DNA from: Gammaproteobacteria bacterium
GTDB taxonomy: Bacteria > Pseudomonadota > Gammaproteobacteria > Steroidobacterales > XN24
Reading direction: 5' to 3'
DNA: 64,000 nt
Assembly (NCBI GenBank): GCA_024640085.1
Contig: JAHEFR010000015.1
Location: 1 to 64,000, forward strand
This document shows, piece after piece, positions 5,316 through 61,854 of this stretch. Made by a program: the position numbers and the translations under genes. Numbering within the stretch: position 1 is the first letter of the stretch; every line of letters starts with the position of its first letter. A model generated the notes under the pieces. It was not told where the DNA came from. It did not search any database and was given only the letters and a program-made list of their open reading frames with translations.

Positions 5316-6326
5316 ATGGATGACATAAGCAAGGGCATCGTTTACGTCGCCACGAAGCAGGAGCGCTACGTGGCCGAAGCCTTCCTGTCTGCAGGCAGCG
5401 CGAAGATGCTCGCGCCCGATATACCGATCACGCTGTTCACAAACCTCGTCGATTCGGCTTTCGCGACGGCGCCGTGTTTCGATAACGTGGTCCCCGTCGA
5501 TACCATCGAGGACTTCAATCGATCCTGGTCCGAAGGCCAGCTCGACCGCATCCTCTGCCTGCCCCAGTCTCCCTACGAATACACGCTTCACCTGGATTCG
5601 GACACCAGGGTGCGCGACGCGGCCATCGGGTCGGCCTTTTCGATCCTGGATGACAAGGACCTGGCGATCGTGGAGTGCGGCGAGGACAACAGTTACAGCC
5701 GCCGCCTCTATGGCTCACCCATGTTCAACGTGGGCTTCGTCCTATATCGCAATGTCGCCAAAGTCCGGCAGCTATTCCAGGCATGGGCGGATCTTACGGC
5801 GGAACACTTCAGTCTCGCCCGGAGCGAGGACGAATCACGGATCGAGTGCATGGCCCACATCGACGATCCCGACGTGCGCCGCAAGCTGCTGTTCATGGAC
5901 CAGATCAGCATGGTCCAGTTGTTCAGCCCGGAGGTGAACCAGTTCGGGCTCGATTACATGACACTGGACGAAAGCTGGAATTACCGGGGATCGAGGACCG
6001 GGAGACCGCCGCCGCCCGACCTGAAGCTCGACCACCATCCCGATCTCAGGAAGAAGTATTTTGTCCGTGACCTCACCGTCGAAGCGATGCGGTATCACAG
6101 CGAAGGCCAGCGCGATCTCGCCATCGGTGTCCTCCGGTGGACCGACGCTGAATATCCCGGAAACATCAACGTGATGAAGTTCCTCATCCTCTGCCTGGTG
6201 GAGGGCGGGCAGGACGACGAGGCGATCGCGACCCTTGACCGCATGCTGGAGCAATTCCCTGGATACGGATGGGCCGAGAAAGCCAGGGCCCGTATAGAAA
6301 GTCGGCGCGAGCAGCACAGACACTGA
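5316..6326 (+). CDS. Glycosyltransferase-like (GT-A fold) protein with C-terminal TPR-like tail
   Basis: The 336-residue product begins GIVYVATKQERYVAEAF and has HLDSDTRV near residue 90, the DxD-type metal and nucleotide-sugar binding motif of GT-A glycosyltransferases. PMFNVGFVLYRN further on resembles the acceptor-side region of GT8-like and related nucleotide-diphospho-sugar transferases. The last 70 residues read as one or two TPR-like helix pairs (DLAIGVLRWTDAEYPG and DEAIATLDRMLEQFPG). The start is supported by GAGAGGAA upstream. No signal peptide is seen, so it is probably cytoplasmic. The donor and acceptor are unknown. It lies between two TolB/TPR paralogues, so it may modify an envelope component related to them; that is inference. 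Confidence 0.65.
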   Translation: MDDISKGIVYVATKQERYVAEAFLSAGSAKMLAPDIPITLFTNLVDSAFATAPCFDNVVPVDTIEDFNRSWSEGQLDRILCLPQSPYEYTLHLDSDTRVRDAAIGSAFSILDDKDLAIVECGEDNSYSRRLYGSPMFNVGFVLYRNVAKVRQLFQAWADLTAEHFSLARSEDESRIECMAHIDDPDVRRKLLFMDQISMVQLFSPEVNQFGLDYMTLDESWNYRGSRTGRPPPPDLKLDHHPDLRKKYFVRDLTVEAMRYHSEGQRDLAIGVLRWTDAEYPGNINVMKFLILCLVEGGQDDEAIATLDRMLEQFPGYGWAEKARARIESRREQHRH

Positions 6327-53970: not shown

Positions 53971-54045
53971 CGGAGTCTCCCGTCTGTCCAGTGCATAGGG
54001 GGCCAGGCGCAGCCGGGCGTCAGGACCCGGCCGCGCCTGCCGTTG

Positions 54046-54819
54046 TCAGGCGGAGACTTCCGAGACCGTGGCGGTCCCTGCGTCCCCGGTCTGCCCGCGC
54101 TTCCGACCCGGGAAGATCATCGGCACGCGCTCCCGGTACTGCCGGTACTCGGGATGGGCCTCCAGCAGGTCCCGCTCCTCGAAGACGATGGCAAGGAAGA
54201 TGTAGGCCGTCGTGGCCACCGCGAATACCAGGTGGGCTGCTGTCATGGTCGGGGTCGCCCAGAACGCGAACAGCCAGCCCAGGTAGAGCGGGTGGCGGAC
54301 GACCTTGTAGAGACCCGGTGTCCCGAACTTCAACGGCGTGTACGGCTTGCCGAGCAGTTCCAACCAAACCTGGCGCAGGCCAAAAAGATCGAAATGGTTG
54401 ATCAGGAACGTGCTGACCAGCACCAGCAGCCATCCCAGGCCGGCGGCCGCGAACAGCGCGATCCGCCCGGCCTGGTTGCTGACCTGCCAGACGACTCCGC
54501 CCATAGGCTCCCACAGGGCGAACAGCAGGATCAGCGCCAGGCTGGAAAGCAGCACGTAGGTGCTGCGCTCGGCGGCGGCGGGGATGATCCTCGTCCACCA
54601 GCGTTTGAAGGCCGGCCGCGCCATGACGCTGTGCTGCAGTGCGAAAATCCCCAGCAGACACAGATTGATCACCAGGGCCTGTCCAAAGGGTGCCTGGGGC
54701 ACGGAATCCATGGCCTTGGGTACGAAGACGTTGGCGACGAAACCGATGGCATAAAGGAACGTGGAGAAGAAGATCGCATAGCACACCAGGCCGTATGCGA
54801 AGATGGAGATGCGTTTCAT
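54046..54819 (-). CDS. MddA-like methanethiol S-methyltransferase (isoprenylcysteine-methyltransferase fold)
   Basis: The 257-residue membrane enzyme starts at ATG 54819 after the strong site [53 protein letters not shown] and [21 protein letters not shown] form the signature of MddA/NnrU-type methyltransferases, with five or six helices and a C-terminal SAM-binding site. MddA makes dimethyl sulfide from methanethiol; the acceptor here is inferred from family similarity. It stands alone on the minus strand between the hydrogenase operon and TolB/TPR copy 6. Confidence 0.75.
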
Positions 54820-54961
54820 GACTGACCTCCTCGGGTCGTGTAACTTACTGATTCGGCCAGAGTTCTGGCCTGGCAAGCAGTCTGCGCCTACAATCCGCTG
54901 AAAATCCTGACCGGCGGGGAATCATTTCCTGACCAATTCATGACCCCGGCCTCCGGAGCAC

Positions 54962-55019
54962 AGATCGATCGTGACGGAGCCCGAAACAGGCACCCTGCCA
55001 GGAGGGGTGAGACGTCGGT
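54962..55019 (+). promoter_or_regulatory. Leader with SD-occluding hairpin (TolB/TPR copy 6)
   Basis: CACCC (54991-54995) can pair with GGGTG (55005-55009) around a 9-nt loop. The loop and 3' arm include the Shine-Dalgarno AGGAGGGG, and the arm ends 10 nt before the ATG at 55020. AGATCGAT (54962-54969), a partial match to AATCGACA, lies about 50 nt before the start. The hairpin geometry equals that of copies 1 and 2. Confidence 0.45.
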
Positions 55020-57617
55020 ATGGCCAGCAATCTGTTTCAGGAACTGAAGCGCCGCCATGTTTTCCGGGCGACCGGCGTCTATCTGCTGGTTGCCTGGGGG
55101 GTCCTGCAGCTTGCGGATATCGTCGTCCCGGCCCTGGGGCTGCCCGGGTGGGTGGTCACCGCCGTGCTGGCTATTCTCGTCCTCTGCTTCCCGCTGGCCC
55201 TGGTGCTGGCGTGGATCTTCGATCTCACCCCCCACGGGCTGCAACGGTCGCTTTACGACGAACCTCCGATGGCAGCCGAGCAGGCGCAACCGCAGGGTGA
55301 CTCGAGGTCAAAGCTCTGCTTCGGCGAGTTCGAACTCGATCTGCCGGGACGGGAACTGCGCCGAGACGGCGAACCGGTCGAGATCCAACCGCGGGTCTTC
55401 TCGGTGCTCGCCTACCTTGTAGAGCACCGGGATCGGGCCGTATCCAAGGAGGAACTCCAGGAACAGGTGTGGGCGGGAGTGGTGGTGACCGAAGCGTCTT
55501 TGACCCGGGCGATCATGAAGCTGAGGCAGGCCCTGGGAGACGACGCCGGCGCGCCCTCGACGGTCAAGACCGTTCACGGTCACGGATACCGTTTCGTCGC
55601 ACCTCTGTCAGACGCTGATGCGCCACCCGGAGCGCAGGCGTCGTCCGGGACCGCAGCAACCGGTACCACCGTGACGGGAACCTGGATTCCGCTCGCGATC
55701 GCAGGACTGCTGGTCGCCGCAGTGGCAGTCGGCATCGTCTCCCTCATTCCCCGGGACGTGACCGGGACCCGCGTAGCGGTGCTGCCGGTCATCAACGGAA
55801 CCGACGATCCGGACCTGACCTGGGCGCGTCTCGGACTGATGAGCTTCGCCAGCGATCTGATCGCCAATTCGGAGCAGCTGTCGGTGGTCCCGGACGCGCA
55901 GGTCGTCAGACTCGCCGAGGATGTTGCAGGGGACCAGGCGCTGATGGCGGAACGACTGCGGCGCGGGTTCGGGGCCACCCACATCCTGAAGCTGGAACTG
56001 ACCAGCGGGGGCGGTGGACTTCGGCTCAGCTACTCCCTGATCGGCGACGATGACTCCGAGGTTCGCGGCACCATGGTGGACGAGGACGCCACGGTGCTCA
56101 CCCGGGGCGTGGCGAGGAGCGTCGTGGCGGCCATCGCCGGCCAGCGCCGCATGAGGGATCAGTTCAAGAGCGTCTCCGACGACCCTTTCCTGAACGAGGC
56201 TTACGCCCGGGGCATGAGCCTGGTGCTCGAGGGACGGTGTTCCGACGCCAGGGGATTGTTCAAAGTCGTCATCGACCAGGAGCCAGACTCGTTCGAGCCC
56301 AGGTTCGAATATGCCTTCTGCTCGAGAATACTGGGGGAGCCGGACACGGCCGAGGAAATCCTCGTCGCCCTGATCGACGAGCAACGGCCGAACGGTCCCA
56401 GCCGGGCGCTGGCTAAGGCGCTCGAGTTGCTTGGTGTGCTCTACAACCGCACCGGCCGGCTGGACGAGGCCGAGACCGCGGAACTCGAAGCCCTGGAGAT
56501 CGCCAGGGGCATCGGCGACCACGACCTGGCCGGCGGCCTGTTGGTCAACCTGTCCATCGTCGCGGAGGACCGGGCCGACTTCCCGCTGGCCAAGGAGCGG
56601 CTCGGCCGGGCCATGGTCGCCTACCGGGACGCCGGCAGGGAGATCCTGCCGGGCCAGATCTATTCGGCCTTGGCCAACCTGGCCATGGACCGCGGCGAAC
56701 TGGACGAGGCGGAGAAAAACCTCGCCCAGGCGCTGGAGTCGTTCCGCTTCGTCGGCGACCGCCGCAGCGAGGCGATGATGCTCAACAATACCGGTTACCT
56801 GTTTCGACTCCAGGGACGGCTGGACGAGGCCGAAACGTTCCACGAACAGTCCTATTCCCTGCGCCAGGAGCTCGGCGACCGGGTCGGCATGGGCCGTGTG
56901 CGCAACATGATGGCCCAGCTTCACCTGGCGCGCGGCCGCTTCGACACTGCGCTGGAAGCGGCGAGCGAGGCGGCTACGATCCTGCACGCCAGCAAGGACC
57001 GTCTGTTCGAGGCGACGGCCCGGATGCACATGGGTCAGGCGGAACTGGGCCGGCGCAACTTCGACGCCGCCGAGGACCACTTCCGCCAGGCCCGAGATAT
57101 CTTCGAGCAGATCCAGGACCGCATGCGGGTGATGTCCTCCGATGTGGACCTCGCCCGGGTCGAGTTCGAACTCGGCATCCCCGGTGTGGAAGCCCGGGTC
57201 CAGGCGCTGGCGGACCGGGCGAGCCAGGAGCAGTTCAACCTGGTGCAGATCGAGGCGCTGGAATTGCTCGGTGACATCGCCGCGAGGGCGGAAGATCCTA
57301 CAGGGGCCCGGGAGCGTTACGGGGAGGCGCTCGAGCTACTGGAACAGTTGAGCTGGGACAGCAAGGAAACCGAGATTACCGTGAAGCTGGGGGAGGTCCT
57401 CGTCGCCGAGGGCTCGCTGGAAGCGGCGGAGCCGCTGCTCGGACTCATCAGCCAGCGGCCCGAGGACCTGGCGAGTCTGCGGTTGCGGGCCCACTATGCG
57501 GCCGCCACGGGCCATGTCTCGGCTGCGGCCGAATTGATGCAGCGGGGCCGGGACCTGGGTGACGGCCGCTGGACGGAGTCCGACGAACGGGAGCTCGCCC
57601 TGTACCTCGCTGACTGA
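55020..57617 (+). CDS. Winged-helix TolB-like/TPR membrane regulator (copy 6)
   Basis: The 865-residue protein starts MASNLFQELKRRHVFRATGV with the family membrane module (TM1 about 17-36, TM2 about 46-66, LTPHGLQRS). Residues 99-195 form an OmpR/CadC-type winged helix (FGEFELDLPGRELRRDGEPV, TEASLTRAIMKLRQALGDDA, TVHGHGYRFV). TM3 is at about 222-243, then a weakly conserved TolB-like region (RVAVLPVINGTDDPDLTWARLG) and a long TPR array (about 370-860). This puts the DNA-binding domain in the cytoplasm and the TolB/TPR part in the periplasm, like a CadC-type one-component sensor. It is the only copy with DNA-binding ability, so it could link envelope signals sensed by the family to transcription. 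Confidence 0.8.
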   Translation: MASNLFQELKRRHVFRATGVYLLVAWGVLQLADIVVPALGLPGWVVTAVLAILVLCFPLALVLAWIFDLTPHGLQRSLYDEPPMAAEQAQPQGDSRSKLCFGEFELDLPGRELRRDGEPVEIQPRVFSVLAYLVEHRDRAVSKEELQEQVWAGVVVTEASLTRAIMKLRQALGDDAGAPSTVKTVHGHGYRFVAPLSDADAPPGAQASSGTAATGTTVTGTWIPLAIAGLLVAAVAVGIVSLIPRDVTGTRVAVLPVINGTDDPDLTWARLGLMSFASDLIANSEQLSVVPDAQVVRLAEDVAGDQALMAERLRRGFGATHILKLELTSGGGGLRLSYSLIGDDDSEVRGTMVDEDATVLTRGVARSVVAAIAGQRRMRDQFKSVSDDPFLNEAYARGMSLVLEGRCSDARGLFKVVIDQEPDSFEPRFEYAFCSRILGEPDTAEEILVALIDEQRPNGPSRALAKALELLGVLYNRTGRLDEAETAELEALEIARGIGDHDLAGGLLVNLSIVAEDRADFPLAKERLGRAMVAYRDAGREILPGQIYSALANLAMDRGELDEAEKNLAQALESFRFVGDRRSEAMMLNNTGYLFRLQGRLDEAETFHEQSYSLRQELGDRVGMGRVRNMMAQLHLARGRFDTALEAASEAATILHASKDRLFEATARMHMGQAELGRRNFDAAEDHFRQARDIFEQIQDRMRVMSSDVDLARVEFELGIPGVEARVQALADRASQEQFNLVQIEALELLGDIAARAEDPTGARERYGEALELLEQLSWDSKETEITVKLGEVLVAEGSLEAAEPLLGLISQRPEDLASLRLRAHYAAATGHVSAAAELMQRGRDLGDGRWTESDERELALYLAD

Positions 57618-57649
57618 CCAGGCCCGCGGCGGCACGCCCGCGCCGCAGC

Positions 57650-58561
57650 TCACTCCACAAGATCCCAATAGGGGCGTTCGGTGATGCGTCCGGCCAGATA
57701 ATCCACGAACAAGCGGACTTTTGCCGCGAGATGGCGGTGGCGGGGATAAAGGGCGAAGATCCGTACGTCCGCCGGCGCGTAGTCACAGAGCACGGTGCGC
57801 AGGAGGCCCTGCTGCAAATCGGGACCCACGATGAAAGTCGGCAGCATGGCGATGCCCTGGCCCGCCATGGCGGCATCCTTCAGCACCTCGCCGTTGTTCG
57901 ACCACATCACGCATCGAATCCGCGTGGGGTGGTCGCCGTCGGGACCGGTCAACGGCCAGGTGCTGCCGCTCTCAAGATGACCGTAGTGCAGGCATCGATG
58001 GTCCCGGAGATCTCCGGGCCGAAGCGGTTCACCGGCGGAGTCCAGGTAGGCCGGCGAGGCGCAAAGGACCCGGCGGGCCGGCGCCAGGTCGCGCATCACC
58101 AGGCTGGTGGAATGCCTCGGCCGTGCCACGCGGATGGTCACGTCGAAGCCCTCCTCGATGGGGTCGACAAACCGGTCGCTGAGGGACAACTCGAGCTGCA
58201 GGTCGGGATAGAGGTCGATGAAGTCCGCCACCATCCTCGACAGGTGCAACGTGCCCAGGGACATGGGCGCGTTGACCCGCAGATGCCCGCGGATCTCTCC
58301 CTGACGCTGGCCCACCGCCAGGAACGCGGCATCGAGATCGGCCAGCACGAGCAGGGCCCGCTCGTAAAAGGCGAGGCCGGTCTCGGTCGGGCTCACCCGG
58401 CGAGTACTGCGGCGGAAAAGCTGGGCTCCAAGTTCGTTCTCCAGAGCCTTGATGTGCTTGCTGACCGCAGACCGGGTGATGCCCTGCGACCGGGCAGCCG
58501 CCGCGAAACTGCCCTCGTCGACCACGCGGGTGAAGGTTCGGATGGACGCCGTCTTGTCCAT
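57650..58561 (-). CDS. LysR-family transcriptional regulator
   Basis: This 303-residue regulator has the LysR winged helix-turn-helix TFTRVVDEGSFAAAARSQGITRSAVSKHIKALENELGAQLFRRSTRRV at the N-terminus and a periplasmic-binding-protein-like effector domain. The ATG at 58561 gives MDKTASIRTF, the usual start for this group. It is divergent from a pirin-family gene, a common pair in which the LysR protein controls the quinone- or flavonoid-responsive pirin. A candidate binding site lies between them. Confidence 0.88.
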   Translation of the reverse strand: MDKTASIRTFTRVVDEGSFAAAARSQGITRSAVSKHIKALENELGAQLFRRSTRRVSPTETGLAFYERALLVLADLDAAFLAVGQRQGEIRGHLRVNAPMSLGTLHLSRMVADFIDLYPDLQLELSLSDRFVDPIEEGFDVTIRVARPRHSTSLVMRDLAPARRVLCASPAYLDSAGEPLRPGDLRDHRCLHYGHLESGSTWPLTGPDGDHPTRIRCVMWSNNGEVLKDAAMAGQGIAMLPTFIVGPDLQQGLLRTVLCDYAPADVRIFALYPRHRHLAAKVRLFVDYLAGRITERPYWDLVE

Positions 58562-58576
58562 GATCACCGTTATTGG

Positions 58577-58595
58577 TTCTTGAATGGATACAGAA
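58577..58595. promoter_or_regulatory. LysR-type binding site in divergent promoter
   Basis: TTCT-N11-AGAA fits the T-N11-A LysR-box pattern with extended palindromic ends. It lies 16 bp before the LysR start and 76 bp before the pirin start, where autoregulation and activation sites are usual. Confidence 0.45.
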
Positions 58596-58670
58596 TGTTG
58601 CAATATTACCTAATTGTCTCCTCTTTTTCCGTCTCATAGACTGTCGTCGAGCAATTTCGAGGAGACGCTC

Positions 58671-59372
58671 ATGATCCACATACGACGCGCAGGGGACCGG
58701 GGACGGGCCAATTTCGGCTGGCTCGACTCCCGCCACACTTTTTCCTTCGGGCATTACTACGACCCTGATCACATGGGCTTCGGCTCCCTGAGGGTCATCA
58801 ACGAGGACCGGGTTTCCCCTGGCGCGGGGTTCGACACGCACGGGCACCGGGACATGGAGATCATCTCCTATGTTCTGGACGGCGCCCTGGAACACCGGGA
58901 CAGCATCGGCAACGGCTCCGTCATCCGCCCCGGGGACGTCCAGCGCATGACGGCGGGCACGGGTATCCGCCACAGCGAGTTCAACGCCTCCTCTAAGGAT
59001 CCGGTGCATTTCCTCCAGATCTGGATCTTTCCCGAGCGGCCCGGGTTGGAGCCAGGATACGAACAGAAACGCTTCACGGAAACTTCCGACGGCGGCGACC
59101 TGCGCCTGGTTGCCTCCCGGGATGGCCGGGACGGCTCGGTGACGATCCACCAGGATGTGGATGTCCATGCCGGCCGCCTGGCCGACGGCCGGGAAACCCG
59201 CCTGGACCTCGGCGACGAGCGGCGCGCATGGTTGCAGCTCGCACGCGGCGCTGTCGACCTCAACGACCAGCCCATGGCCGCGGGAGACGGCGCCGCCATA
59301 GACGGTGAGTCCTCGCTTGTCATCCGGTCGCGGGCGCCCGATACGGAGGTACTGCTGTTCGACATGGGTTGA
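58671..59372 (+). CDS. Pirin-family bicupin (YhaK/quercetinase-like)
   Basis: The 233-residue cupin protein starts at ATG 58671 behind GAGGAGACG. Metal ligands are visible in FDTHGHRDMEIISYVLDGALEHRDS (HxH, E) and TAGTGIRHSEFNAS (H), as in YhaK/YhhW pirins with quercetin 2,3-dioxygenase activity. QIWIFPERPGLEPGYEQKRF follows. It may act in redox-stress response; the substrate is not known. It is regulated with the divergent LysR gene. Confidence 0.85.
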   Translation: MIHIRRAGDRGRANFGWLDSRHTFSFGHYYDPDHMGFGSLRVINEDRVSPGAGFDTHGHRDMEIISYVLDGALEHRDSIGNGSVIRPGDVQRMTAGTGIRHSEFNASSKDPVHFLQIWIFPERPGLEPGYEQKRFTETSDGGDLRLVASRDGRDGSVTIHQDVDVHAGRLADGRETRLDLGDERRAWLQLARGAVDLNDQPMAAGDGAAIDGESSLVIRSRAPDTEVLLFDMG

Positions 59373-60354: not shown

Positions 60355-61854
60355 TCAGGATCCGGACCTGGGGTGGAGCCAGCCCGGCAGGAAGGAGTAT
60401 GGGTCTACGCCGTCCGTTTCCGCCATTTCGATTCCCAGGTCAAGCAACTGCTCGCGAAGGCTCCCCTCCGCCAGGGCATCGAACAATTCCGTGCAGCCAC
60501 CGAGGTGCCGCCCGCCGATGAAGATCTGAGGTATCGTCGGCGTCCCCGTGCGCGCCTTCAGCACCGCGCGGATCTTGCCGCCGAGGTCGTCTTCCTGGTA
60601 CGCGACCGAATCCAGGTCGACCGCCCGGTATGGAATATCCAGGCTGGCAAACAGTTTCCTGGCGGACCAGCAGAACTCACACCATTCCAGGGCAAACATC
60701 ACCACAGGCTGCGCCTCGGAGTCGATGACCTGGGCGACCATGGCTTCGACCTCCGGCTCGAGTGCCTCCTTCGATGAGGTCTCCGGCGCAGGCTCGGCGA
60801 CCGGCGTCACGTCGAACCGGAAATTCGGCGTCGAACAGGAGATCGCCACCTCCTCCTCGGTCATGTCCTCGGGGACGTCCTCGAACAACGGCGTGCTCAG
60901 GTATCGTTCACCGGTGTCCGGCAACATGCACAGGATGGTCGAGCCCTCGGCGGCCGACTCGCAGACCTTCAGGGCGCCCGCGAACGTCGCCCCGCCGGAG
61001 ATGCCCGTCAGGATACCTTCCTTGCGCGACAGTTCACGGGACAGTCTCAAGGCTTCGGCTCCCGCCACCGGGATGATCTCGTCGATGACTTCCATGTCGA
61101 CGGCATCTTCGGCCAGTTTCGGAATGAAGTCCGGTGACCATCCCTGGACCAGATGAGGGCGGAAGCTGGGGTGGCTGGCCGCAGGAACGCCGTCAGGCAT
61201 GCGCTGCTGCCGGATGCCGCTGCCCAGAACTTGCGAGTTGTCCGGCTCGCAGACGATGATCCTGGTATCCGGACTCTCCGCGCTGAGCACCCTGGCCACG
61301 CCCTTGAGTGTGCCGCCGGTGCCAAACCCTGTCACCCAGTAGTCCAGGCCACGGTCGTCGAAGTCTCCCAGGATTTCGCGGGCCGTGGTCCGGGAGTGAA
61401 TGTCCGCGTTGGCCTCGTTCTCGAACTGTCGGCAGAGGAACCAGCCGTGGGCCTCGGCCAGTTCGACAGCCTTGGCGAGCATGCCGGTGCCCTTGTTCGC
61501 CGCCGGGGTCAATATGACGCTCGCGCCGAGAAACCGCATCAGCTTGCGGCGCTCGATAGAGAAATTTTCGGCCATCACCACCACCAGCGGATATCCCTTC
61601 GCCGCGCACACCATGGCCAGGCCGATGCCGGTGTTGCCGCTAGTAGCCTCGATGACGGTCTGTCCGGGCGCCAGGGCTCCCGAACGCTCGGCGTCCTCGA
61701 TGACGCCGAGGGCCAGCCGATCCTTGACCGAACCCATGGGATTGAAGGCCTCGCACTTGACGTAGAGATCCACTCCCGGCGGAGCCAGGGAATTGACACG
61801 CACCACCGGCGTGCGCCCGATGGTCCCCAGGATGCTTTCGTAGATTGTCCCCAT
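60355..61854 (-). CDS. Cysteine synthase fused to a C-terminal glutaredoxin domain
   Basis: Residues 1-320 are a PLP-dependent O-acetylserine sulfhydrylase: CEAFNPMGSVKDRLAL holds the catalytic lysine, VIEATSGNTGIGLAM the substrate-binding loop, GTGGTLKGVARVL the phosphate loop and GILTGISGGATFAGAL the C-terminal PLP-side loop. After a Glu/Pro-rich linker (about 340-375) comes a glutaredoxin-like domain (about 378-460) with WCEFCWSARKLF (CxxC) and GTPTIPQIFIGGRHLGGCTEL. The enzyme makes cysteine from O-acetylserine and sulfide; the glutaredoxin part may reduce it or use glutathione. Single-domain CysK enzymes are about 310 residues. Confidence 0.85.
   Translation of the reverse strand: MGTIYESILGTIGRTPVVRVNSLAPPGVDLYVKCEAFNPMGSVKDRLALGVIEDAERSGALAPGQTVIEATSGNTGIGLAMVCAAKGYPLVVVMAENFSIERRKLMRFLGASVILTPAANKGTGMLAKAVELAEAHGWFLCRQFENEANADIHSRTTAREILGDFDDRGLDYWVTGFGTGGTLKGVARVLSAESPDTRIIVCEPDNSQVLGSGIRQQRMPDGVPAASHPSFRPHLVQGWSPDFIPKLAEDAVDMEVIDEIIPVAGAEALRLSRELSRKEGILTGISGGATFAGALKVCESAAEGSTILCMLPDTGERYLSTPLFEDVPEDMTEEEVAISCSTPNFRFDVTPVAEPAPETSSKEALEPEVEAMVAQVIDSEAQPVVMFALEWCEFCWSARKLFASLDIPYRAVDLDSVAYQEDDLGGKIRAVLKARTGTPTIPQIFIGGRHLGGCTELFDALAEGSLREQLLDLGIEMAETDGVDPYSFLPGWLHPRSGS

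Follow-up and report, generated by a model that had tools for sequence, protein, structure and literature searches.

A membrane-anchored winged-helix protein as probable regulator of the divergent methanethiol S-methyltransferase gene mddA

What does a DNA-binding domain control when it is encoded between predicted membrane helices? The question is raised by one gene, termed copy 6, in the 64,000 nucleotides of gammaproteobacterial DNA that were analysed here (the window). A preliminary description had read its winged helix as an insertion into one member of a membrane-protein family, which would thereby have become the transcriptional output of relatives that only sense. We consider a different answer highly probable: copy 6 would be a membrane-bound one-component regulator of the ToxR/CadC kind, with the neighbouring gene mddA as its main target and with a two-helix hairpin fused to it in this genus.

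Domain architecture of copy 6

The gene and its parts lie in the window as follows.

55020–57617, plus strand: regulator gene (copy 6), one ORF of 865 amino acids with helix pair, winged helix, third membrane helix, TolB/FlgO-like domain and TPRs
55020–55253, plus strand: helix pair, residues 1–78, with 42 other matches in the genome
55308–55607, plus strand: OmpR/PhoB-type winged helix, residues 97–196 (Pfam, model, closest solved chains)
55491–55532, plus strand: recognition helix, residues 158–171 (helix from the AlphaFold2 model, conservation from alignments)
55686–55748, plus strand: third membrane helix, residues 223–243 (hydropathy, model)
55758–56135, plus strand: TolB N-domain/FlgT/PelC-like fold, residues 247–372, predicted periplasmic (model and fold search)
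56184–57611, plus strand: TPR superhelix, residues 389–864, predicted periplasmic (Pfam, model, fold search)
56238–56321, plus strand: Cys407 codon (56238–56240) to Cys434 codon (56319–56321) (alignment, n = 24)

The winged helix described between the second and third membrane helices is real, with an extent of about residues 97–196 rather than the 95–200 first given: the whole length of Pfam Trans_reg_C matches residues 117–192 (E = 3.8e-17 and 62.6 bits, the cut-off being 26.2), and in an AlphaFold2 model of copy 6 (24 sequences, mean pLDDT 85) residues 98–192 fold into four strands, three helices and a hairpin, the ten-residue blocks from 101 to 200 having pLDDT values of 93 to 95 in six of ten and 81 to 91 in four. 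Its closest solved chains include CadC (5ju7, 1.2e-11), OmpR and PhoB. The Pfam search placed TPRs behind the winged helix and found no receiver domain in copy 6. Elsewhere the model has helices at 14–39 and 44–77 (the tail of the second at low confidence), low-confidence linkers on both sides of the winged helix, a third membrane helix at 223–242, an alpha/beta domain and a long TPR superhelix. Hydropathy gives three hydrophobic segments that the three modelled helices match, so at least one membrane helix is predicted, and a basic stretch precedes the first helix. Taken together, hydropathy, flanking charges and the model suggest an N-in orientation, which would place the winged helix in the cytoplasm, as had been proposed, and the C-terminal half in the periplasm.

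Modelled alone, the predicted periplasmic domain reached a pLDDT of 92.6, and a fold search with it returned the TolB N-domain at a Z of about 13 and, lower, FlgT and PelC at about 10.5; all three are envelope proteins. The periplasmic part of CadC is a weak match (E 0.017), and with the whole copy 6 model TPR-type proteins top the listing. Cys407 and Cys434 are the only cysteines of copy 6 after the third membrane helix; both are present in 18 of 24 aligned sequences (copy 6 included), both are absent in four, and half of the pair is present in two. In CadC, according to the available part of the source, two periplasmic cysteines form a regulatory disulfide (PMC3096576). Given that this pair is conserved, the regulator could plausibly respond to a thiol or redox signal.

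The linker ahead of the winged helix contains an in-frame ATG at 55269–55271 (residue 84), and linker ATGs occur in the same-genus relative (L042) too; an internal start at residue 84 would yield a form that lacks the hairpin, and by eye a ribosome-binding site is not evident.

The divergent neighbour mddA

Directly divergent from copy 6 lies its probable target.

54046–54819, minus strand: mddA, methanethiol S-methyltransferase (NF045656, 343.7 bits, cut-off 270)

MddA converts methanethiol into dimethyl sulfide, and a thiol signal would suit a regulator of thiol methylation. We know of no described regulator of mddA. A literature search that included the available parts of PMC5607357, PMC10819757 and PMC13280387 found none described.

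A pattern scan of 84,980 species genomes, with two winged-helix peptides as bait, returned 56 loci, 29 of which hold long relatives of copy 6 (L042–L068, L070 and L071). Of these 29, 25 have mddA at a distance of no more than 1 kb, 23 of them upstream on the opposite strand and two downstream (L045 and L056); those without it are L048, L052, L070 and L051, the last on a contig that starts 140 bases upstream. Among the other 27 loci of the scan, mddA occurs in one (L069). Copy 6 fits this mddA-linked winged-helix/TPR group, as its alignment with the members extends from winged helix to C terminus, mddA is nearby and a candidate operator lies in between. An extra gene on mddA's strand separates regulator and mddA in six of the 25 loci; named by eye, it is hydrolase-like in L060, L061, L063 and L064 and globin-like in L067 and L071. 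These intervening genes lie between operator and mddA and are possible operon partners.

Several neighbouring observations concern mddA or sulfur. A cysteine synthase gene with a glutaredoxin-like end is found at 60358–61854 (minus strand), and its homologue in L042 lies directly downstream of the regulator; a cysteine synthase near the regulator keeps to the sulfur theme. The genome of the window has a second mddA (L177, G000:C56:3000-9000), 51% identical to the one in the window and without the operator, the next gene downstream of which encodes a helix-pair TPR protein without winged helix. A separate group of mddA-linked winged-helix proteins is found at L138, L142, L147 and L153, and the intergenic DNA of L138 and L142 holds another repeat with an 11-bp period (CCGGGA-like, seen without a shuffle control); mddA may thus have acquired such regulators more than once.

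A candidate operator and the recognition helix

The DNA between copy 6 and mddA contains a repeat element, its half-sites arranged head-to-tail.

54904–54945, plus strand: candidate operator, four TGACC-type half-sites at an 11-bp period, starting at 54908, 54919, 54930 and 54941, the second degenerate

At period 11, 17 of 19 intergenic stretches score 15–20 of 20, a level that none of 200 dinucleotide shuffles reached; L062 and L065 fail this scoring in the stretch as cut. The 19 comprised the stretch of the window, that of L069 and those of 17 of the 25 long relatives linked to mddA; L060, L061, L063, L064, L067 and L071, in which the gaps are long, and L045 and L056, with mddA downstream, were left to a matrix test. 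Because the stretches scored had also supplied the motif, the better test is a hold-out matrix of 15 sites from which the window and L042 were excluded (and in which the L057 site is moved by one repeat relative to its best period-11 placement). This matrix scores 33.4 bits at 54904–54945, with the next value in the 64 kb at 7.2, and it reaches 24 bits or more in 13 of 16 further loci, including L042, L062 and L065. The three others, without a site in the stretch scanned (L048, L052 and L070), all lack mddA; L048 and L052 are full-length relatives with neither. With a 28-site sequence model that includes the window, the operator has an E of 4e-7 in the window's genome (next 0.64), and the orthologous site has 9e-8 in the sister genome (next 0.42); no second operator above noise was found in the window's genome among the 150 of 2,046 first-look candidates that were scored. 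At L045, L056 and L173, where the regulator lies elsewhere, the 42-bp site keeps its orientation and a distance of 73–81 bp to mddA.

An array of four half-sites, arranged head-to-tail and spaced by one helical turn, is the layout that would be expected for a winged helix of the OmpR/PhoB type. PhoP, which has the same fold, binds direct repeats of 7 bp with a 4-bp spacer, according to the part of PMC4832192 that was available. On these grounds copy 6 probably binds the candidate operator and controls mddA.

The element could belong to another factor and merely travel with regulator and mddA. When the best 30 MddA loci were fetched by MddA alone with 1.5-kb flanks (nine of them cut by contig ends, and some overlapping the earlier set), a winged-helix ORF was present in 15 of 30 flanks and the operator scored above 15 bits in 11, two of these being weak (16–17 bits); many mddA genes thus do without the operator. 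That some mddA loci have no regulator would suit another factor, as would L136 (2,471 bases), in which a site lies near the end and no winged-helix gene lies in that short stretch. However, 10 of the 11 MddA loci with a site have a winged-helix neighbour, the three long relatives that lack mddA and have enough upstream DNA also lack the site in the stretch scanned, and the repeat layout suits the winged-helix fold, all of which makes this reading improbable.

The recognition helix keeps its basic residues: K167 and R169 are invariant in 10 of 10 sequences from the whole-protein search and in 24 of 24 of a larger alignment, in which the invariance of K167 is partly given because the scan peptide contained it. 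Copy 6 and L042 differ from the other 22 aligned sequences in having L168 instead of A and Q170 instead of R or K. These substitutions, together with the degenerate second half-site of the window, would suit a winged helix that had ceased to bind DNA, leaving a membrane TPR scaffold with inherited mddA linkage. We find such a loss hardly credible, as the winged helix is the best-conserved domain against the same-genus orthologue (77%), the site is kept in both genomes, and so are K167 and R169. Across loci, the second half-site may be weaker beside hairpin-bearing regulators, a lead only (p = 0.018, uncorrected over four tests and drawn from 6 against 24 non-independent sites, with L176 counted as hairpin-bearing though it has a single hydrophobic segment and no match to the helix-pair HMM).

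Two sites lie outside the mddA setting. At L072 (5904–5945) an operator of 33.7 bits precedes a gene whose winged-helix product has no predicted membrane helix, and 12.6 kb of sequence there contain no mddA. At L176 (1311–2251) a site of the operator type, scoring 42.1 bits, precedes a gene for an alpha/beta hydrolase that follows a winged-helix regulator, and mddA was not found in the 8 kb examined; the target is therefore not always mddA.

Promoter and direction of control

On the mddA side of the operator a possible promoter element can be read by eye.

54879–54884, minus strand: CAGACT, a −10-like element facing mddA

In 11 of 17 promoters CANACT, read towards mddA, begins 23 or 24 bases beyond the last repeat; for CANANT the count is 15 of 17 (by eye and without a control). 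The distance to the start codon, by comparison, ranges between 74 and 129 bp. We infer that CANACT may be the −10 element. In L051 the site (123–164) overlaps the chosen ORF start (159), and in L055 the site (5980–6021) overlaps the start at 6016, in each case with its last half-site; binding there should hinder the regulator's own expression, hinting that the regulator may limit itself.

The same overlap would suit a regulator that binds the same site but represses mddA (or only its own gene) until a signal releases it. We regard repression as possible, if rather unlikely; the argument against it, a weak one, is that the repeats lie upstream of the −10-like CANACT in those 11 promoters, as they would for an activator. 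Activation of mddA by bound copy 6 is the direction that we prefer.

In the mddA leader, the palindrome GGCCAGAGTTCTGGCC spans 54855–54870, and both of its arms have changed together in L042. A conserved RNA hairpin in this leader was considered and rejected (mean z of −0.63 over 17 leaders, with 3 of 17 below −1.65), and no Rfam matches were found in 54000–58700.

Origin of the helix pair

The helix pair recurs in five other genes of the window (at 2964, 6498, 15377, 30129 on the minus strand and 34856), none of which has a winged helix. Genome-wide there are 43 matches at E ≤ 1e-5, copy 6 included, in 3.2 Mb. Such a number in a single genome amounts to a large paralogue expansion. PF00486 has 11 matches in the same genome, of which only copy 6 and a gene on C18 (L005) also have the helix pair. 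Compared with the helix-pair TPR family, copy 6 has the N-terminal pair, but a winged helix rather than a short loop lies between helices 2 and 3.

The body of copy 6 points elsewhere: it is orthologous to the mddA-linked regulators and is not closest to the helix-pair TPR family. Searching 147 related genomes, we found a same-genus protein that matches residues 2–865 at 63%; the next best six (40–43%) begin at residue 79–97 of copy 6, and G014 and G027 give split matches in the same region as the hairpin-less relatives. A 10-sequence alignment, the members of which were found by whole-protein search, includes eight hairpin-less relatives, the alignment of which with copy 6 opens shortly ahead of the winged helix and continues to the C-terminal end at 38–42% identity. 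Among the 29 long relatives a hairpin preceding the winged helix occurs only in L042 (same genus, CP070833.1); L067 and L071 (Pseudomonadales/Pseudomonadaceae) have a diverged hairpin behind it, a call that rests on the helix-pair HMM (8e-13 and 1e-10), with two hydrophobic segments in L067 and one in L071 by hydropathy at the chosen threshold, and three assumed there. In a maximum-likelihood tree of the shared part (27 rows, midpoint root, with L063, L065 and L070 left out), copy 6 and L042 form one clade (100/100) that is nested in the hairpin-less proteins (97/95), apart from L067 and L071. The existence of hairpin-less orthologues and this nesting indicate that the helix pair was added rather than the winged helix inserted. 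Thus, a CadC-like regulator appears to have gained its helix pair, in this genus, from the expanded paralogue family. Outside the genus, the closest relatives of the hairpin among the loci compared are L033 (60%) and L037 (55%), both helix-pair TPR proteins without winged helix from the same bacterial family as the window. Copy 6 and L042 are 70% identical in the hairpin, 77% in the winged helix and 41% in the third membrane helix, and 9% (from pair to winged helix) and 32% in the linkers; these values suggest that the hairpin is constrained beyond mere hydrophobicity.

The helix pair, with its 42 other matches in the genome and its presence in five other window genes, would suit a sensor-family member into which a winged helix had been set after the second membrane helix, before the third, and which now serves as output for the other copies. 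We consider this very improbable, since the winged helix of copy 6 and all that follows it are orthologous to proteins that open with a winged helix, and since there is a single operator in the window, away from copies 1–5, and a single one above noise in the genome. The single operator at mddA thus gives no sign of copy 6 as an output of the other copies.

As far as these searches reach, a hairpin followed by a winged helix is a rare order. The hairpin-fused form of the mddA-linked family was found in two genomes only (copy 6 and L042). A four-row model covering both pair and winged helix matched at least 4 of 396 genomes of the order, the other two with this order being L024 and L027, in which the winged helix is different; across the class, both modules occur only in the window's own genome among the matches listed (at least 1 of 369, E ≤ 1e-42). 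These counts are lower bounds, as no more than eight candidates were scored in each genome and the search missed L173.

Variation of the membrane anchor

The operator is linked to winged helices with different anchors. No membrane helix is predicted in L069 and L072; one is found in L049 by hydropathy and in the other hairpin-less relatives by alignment; the hairpin stands behind the winged helix in L067 and L071 and in front of it in copy 6, L042 and L173. In L173, which adjoins mddA, the hairpin in front is more diverged and there are three hydrophobic segments. L176 resembles the hairpin form by eye, but it has one hydrophobic segment and no match to the helix-pair HMM. A second helix-pair and winged-helix protein in the window's genome (L178 4047–6323, minus strand; that is, G000:C18, also L005) has the opposite order, winged helix first, and in the 12 kb examined there neither mddA nor the operator was found.

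One could speculate that the hairpin is a portable membrane-sensing module that reads a volatile, membrane-soluble thiol or sulfide in the bilayer and relays it to a winged helix tethered at both ends, alongside a periplasmic cysteine switch, an idea that we hold to be doubtful. That such a module was set before the winged helix in this genus and in L173 and after it in L067 and L071, with a shared operator, is likewise a conjecture to which we give little weight.

What these loci offer is a natural experiment on membrane-bound transcription factors, in which the same operator accompanies winged helices that have no predicted membrane helix, a single one, or an extra hairpin on either side of the winged helix. 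In many gammaproteobacterial genomes a candidate regulator can now be named along with its operator and promoter, which makes the question of mddA regulation testable, and a named strain is among the regulator–operator loci (Mangrovimicrobium sediminis, L056, with mddA downstream of the regulator). To our knowledge, both the regulator–operator–mddA unit and the exchange of membrane anchors while the DNA-binding part is conserved are new; our literature search, with subscription papers mostly outside its scope, found neither described.

Discussion

From the features computed directly (that is, domains, relatedness, mddA linkage, the repeat element and its near-uniqueness, and nesting in the tree), we infer DNA binding, activation, topology, signal and the effect of the hairpin for copy 6 as follows. 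The winged helix, held at the cytoplasmic face of the membrane, would bind the four TGACC-type half-sites in the shared promoter region, and bound copy 6 would most likely activate mddA and perhaps limit its own expression. The periplasmic TolB-like domain and TPRs are the likely sensor. In this genus, a hairpin from the expanded paralogue family would have been fused before the winged helix and would tether it to the membrane at both ends. As the hairpin adds an even number of passes, the predicted topology of winged helix and sensor is unchanged, and that neither would be moved may be why the hairpin was tolerated.

Among known systems, CadC of Escherichia coli starts with its winged helix, has one membrane helix and has its target operon cadBA nearby, as copy 6 has mddA. 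The two proteins share a cytoplasmic OmpR-type winged helix, a membrane anchor, a large periplasmic part and, according to the available part of PMC3096576, two periplasmic cysteines. Copy 6 differs in its leading two-helix hairpin, its TolB-like and TPR sensor and its mddA neighbour, and it scores 52.9 bits against the NCBIfam CadC model NF007540, for which the cut-off is 400. With the response regulators of the PhoB/OmpR family it has in common the winged-helix fold and direct-repeat DNA of about one helical turn (PMC4832192, available part), but it is predicted to be membrane-bound and no receiver domain was found. Transmembrane transcription regulators have been defined by a DNA-binding domain and at least one membrane helix, about 56% being single-pass and 17 and 27% two-pass and higher (Demey et al. 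2023, PMC10269533, available part); copy 6 has both (Trans_reg_C at E = 3.8e-17 and predicted membrane helices). The preliminary suggestion that the arrangement had not been described is not supported as it stands: multi-helix membrane regulators are known from that survey, and neither the order hairpin–winged helix–helix nor an mddA target was found in the portion of it available. Copy 6 is thus best filed as a variant within the ToxR/CadC kind of membrane transcription regulators, with mddA as its probable target.
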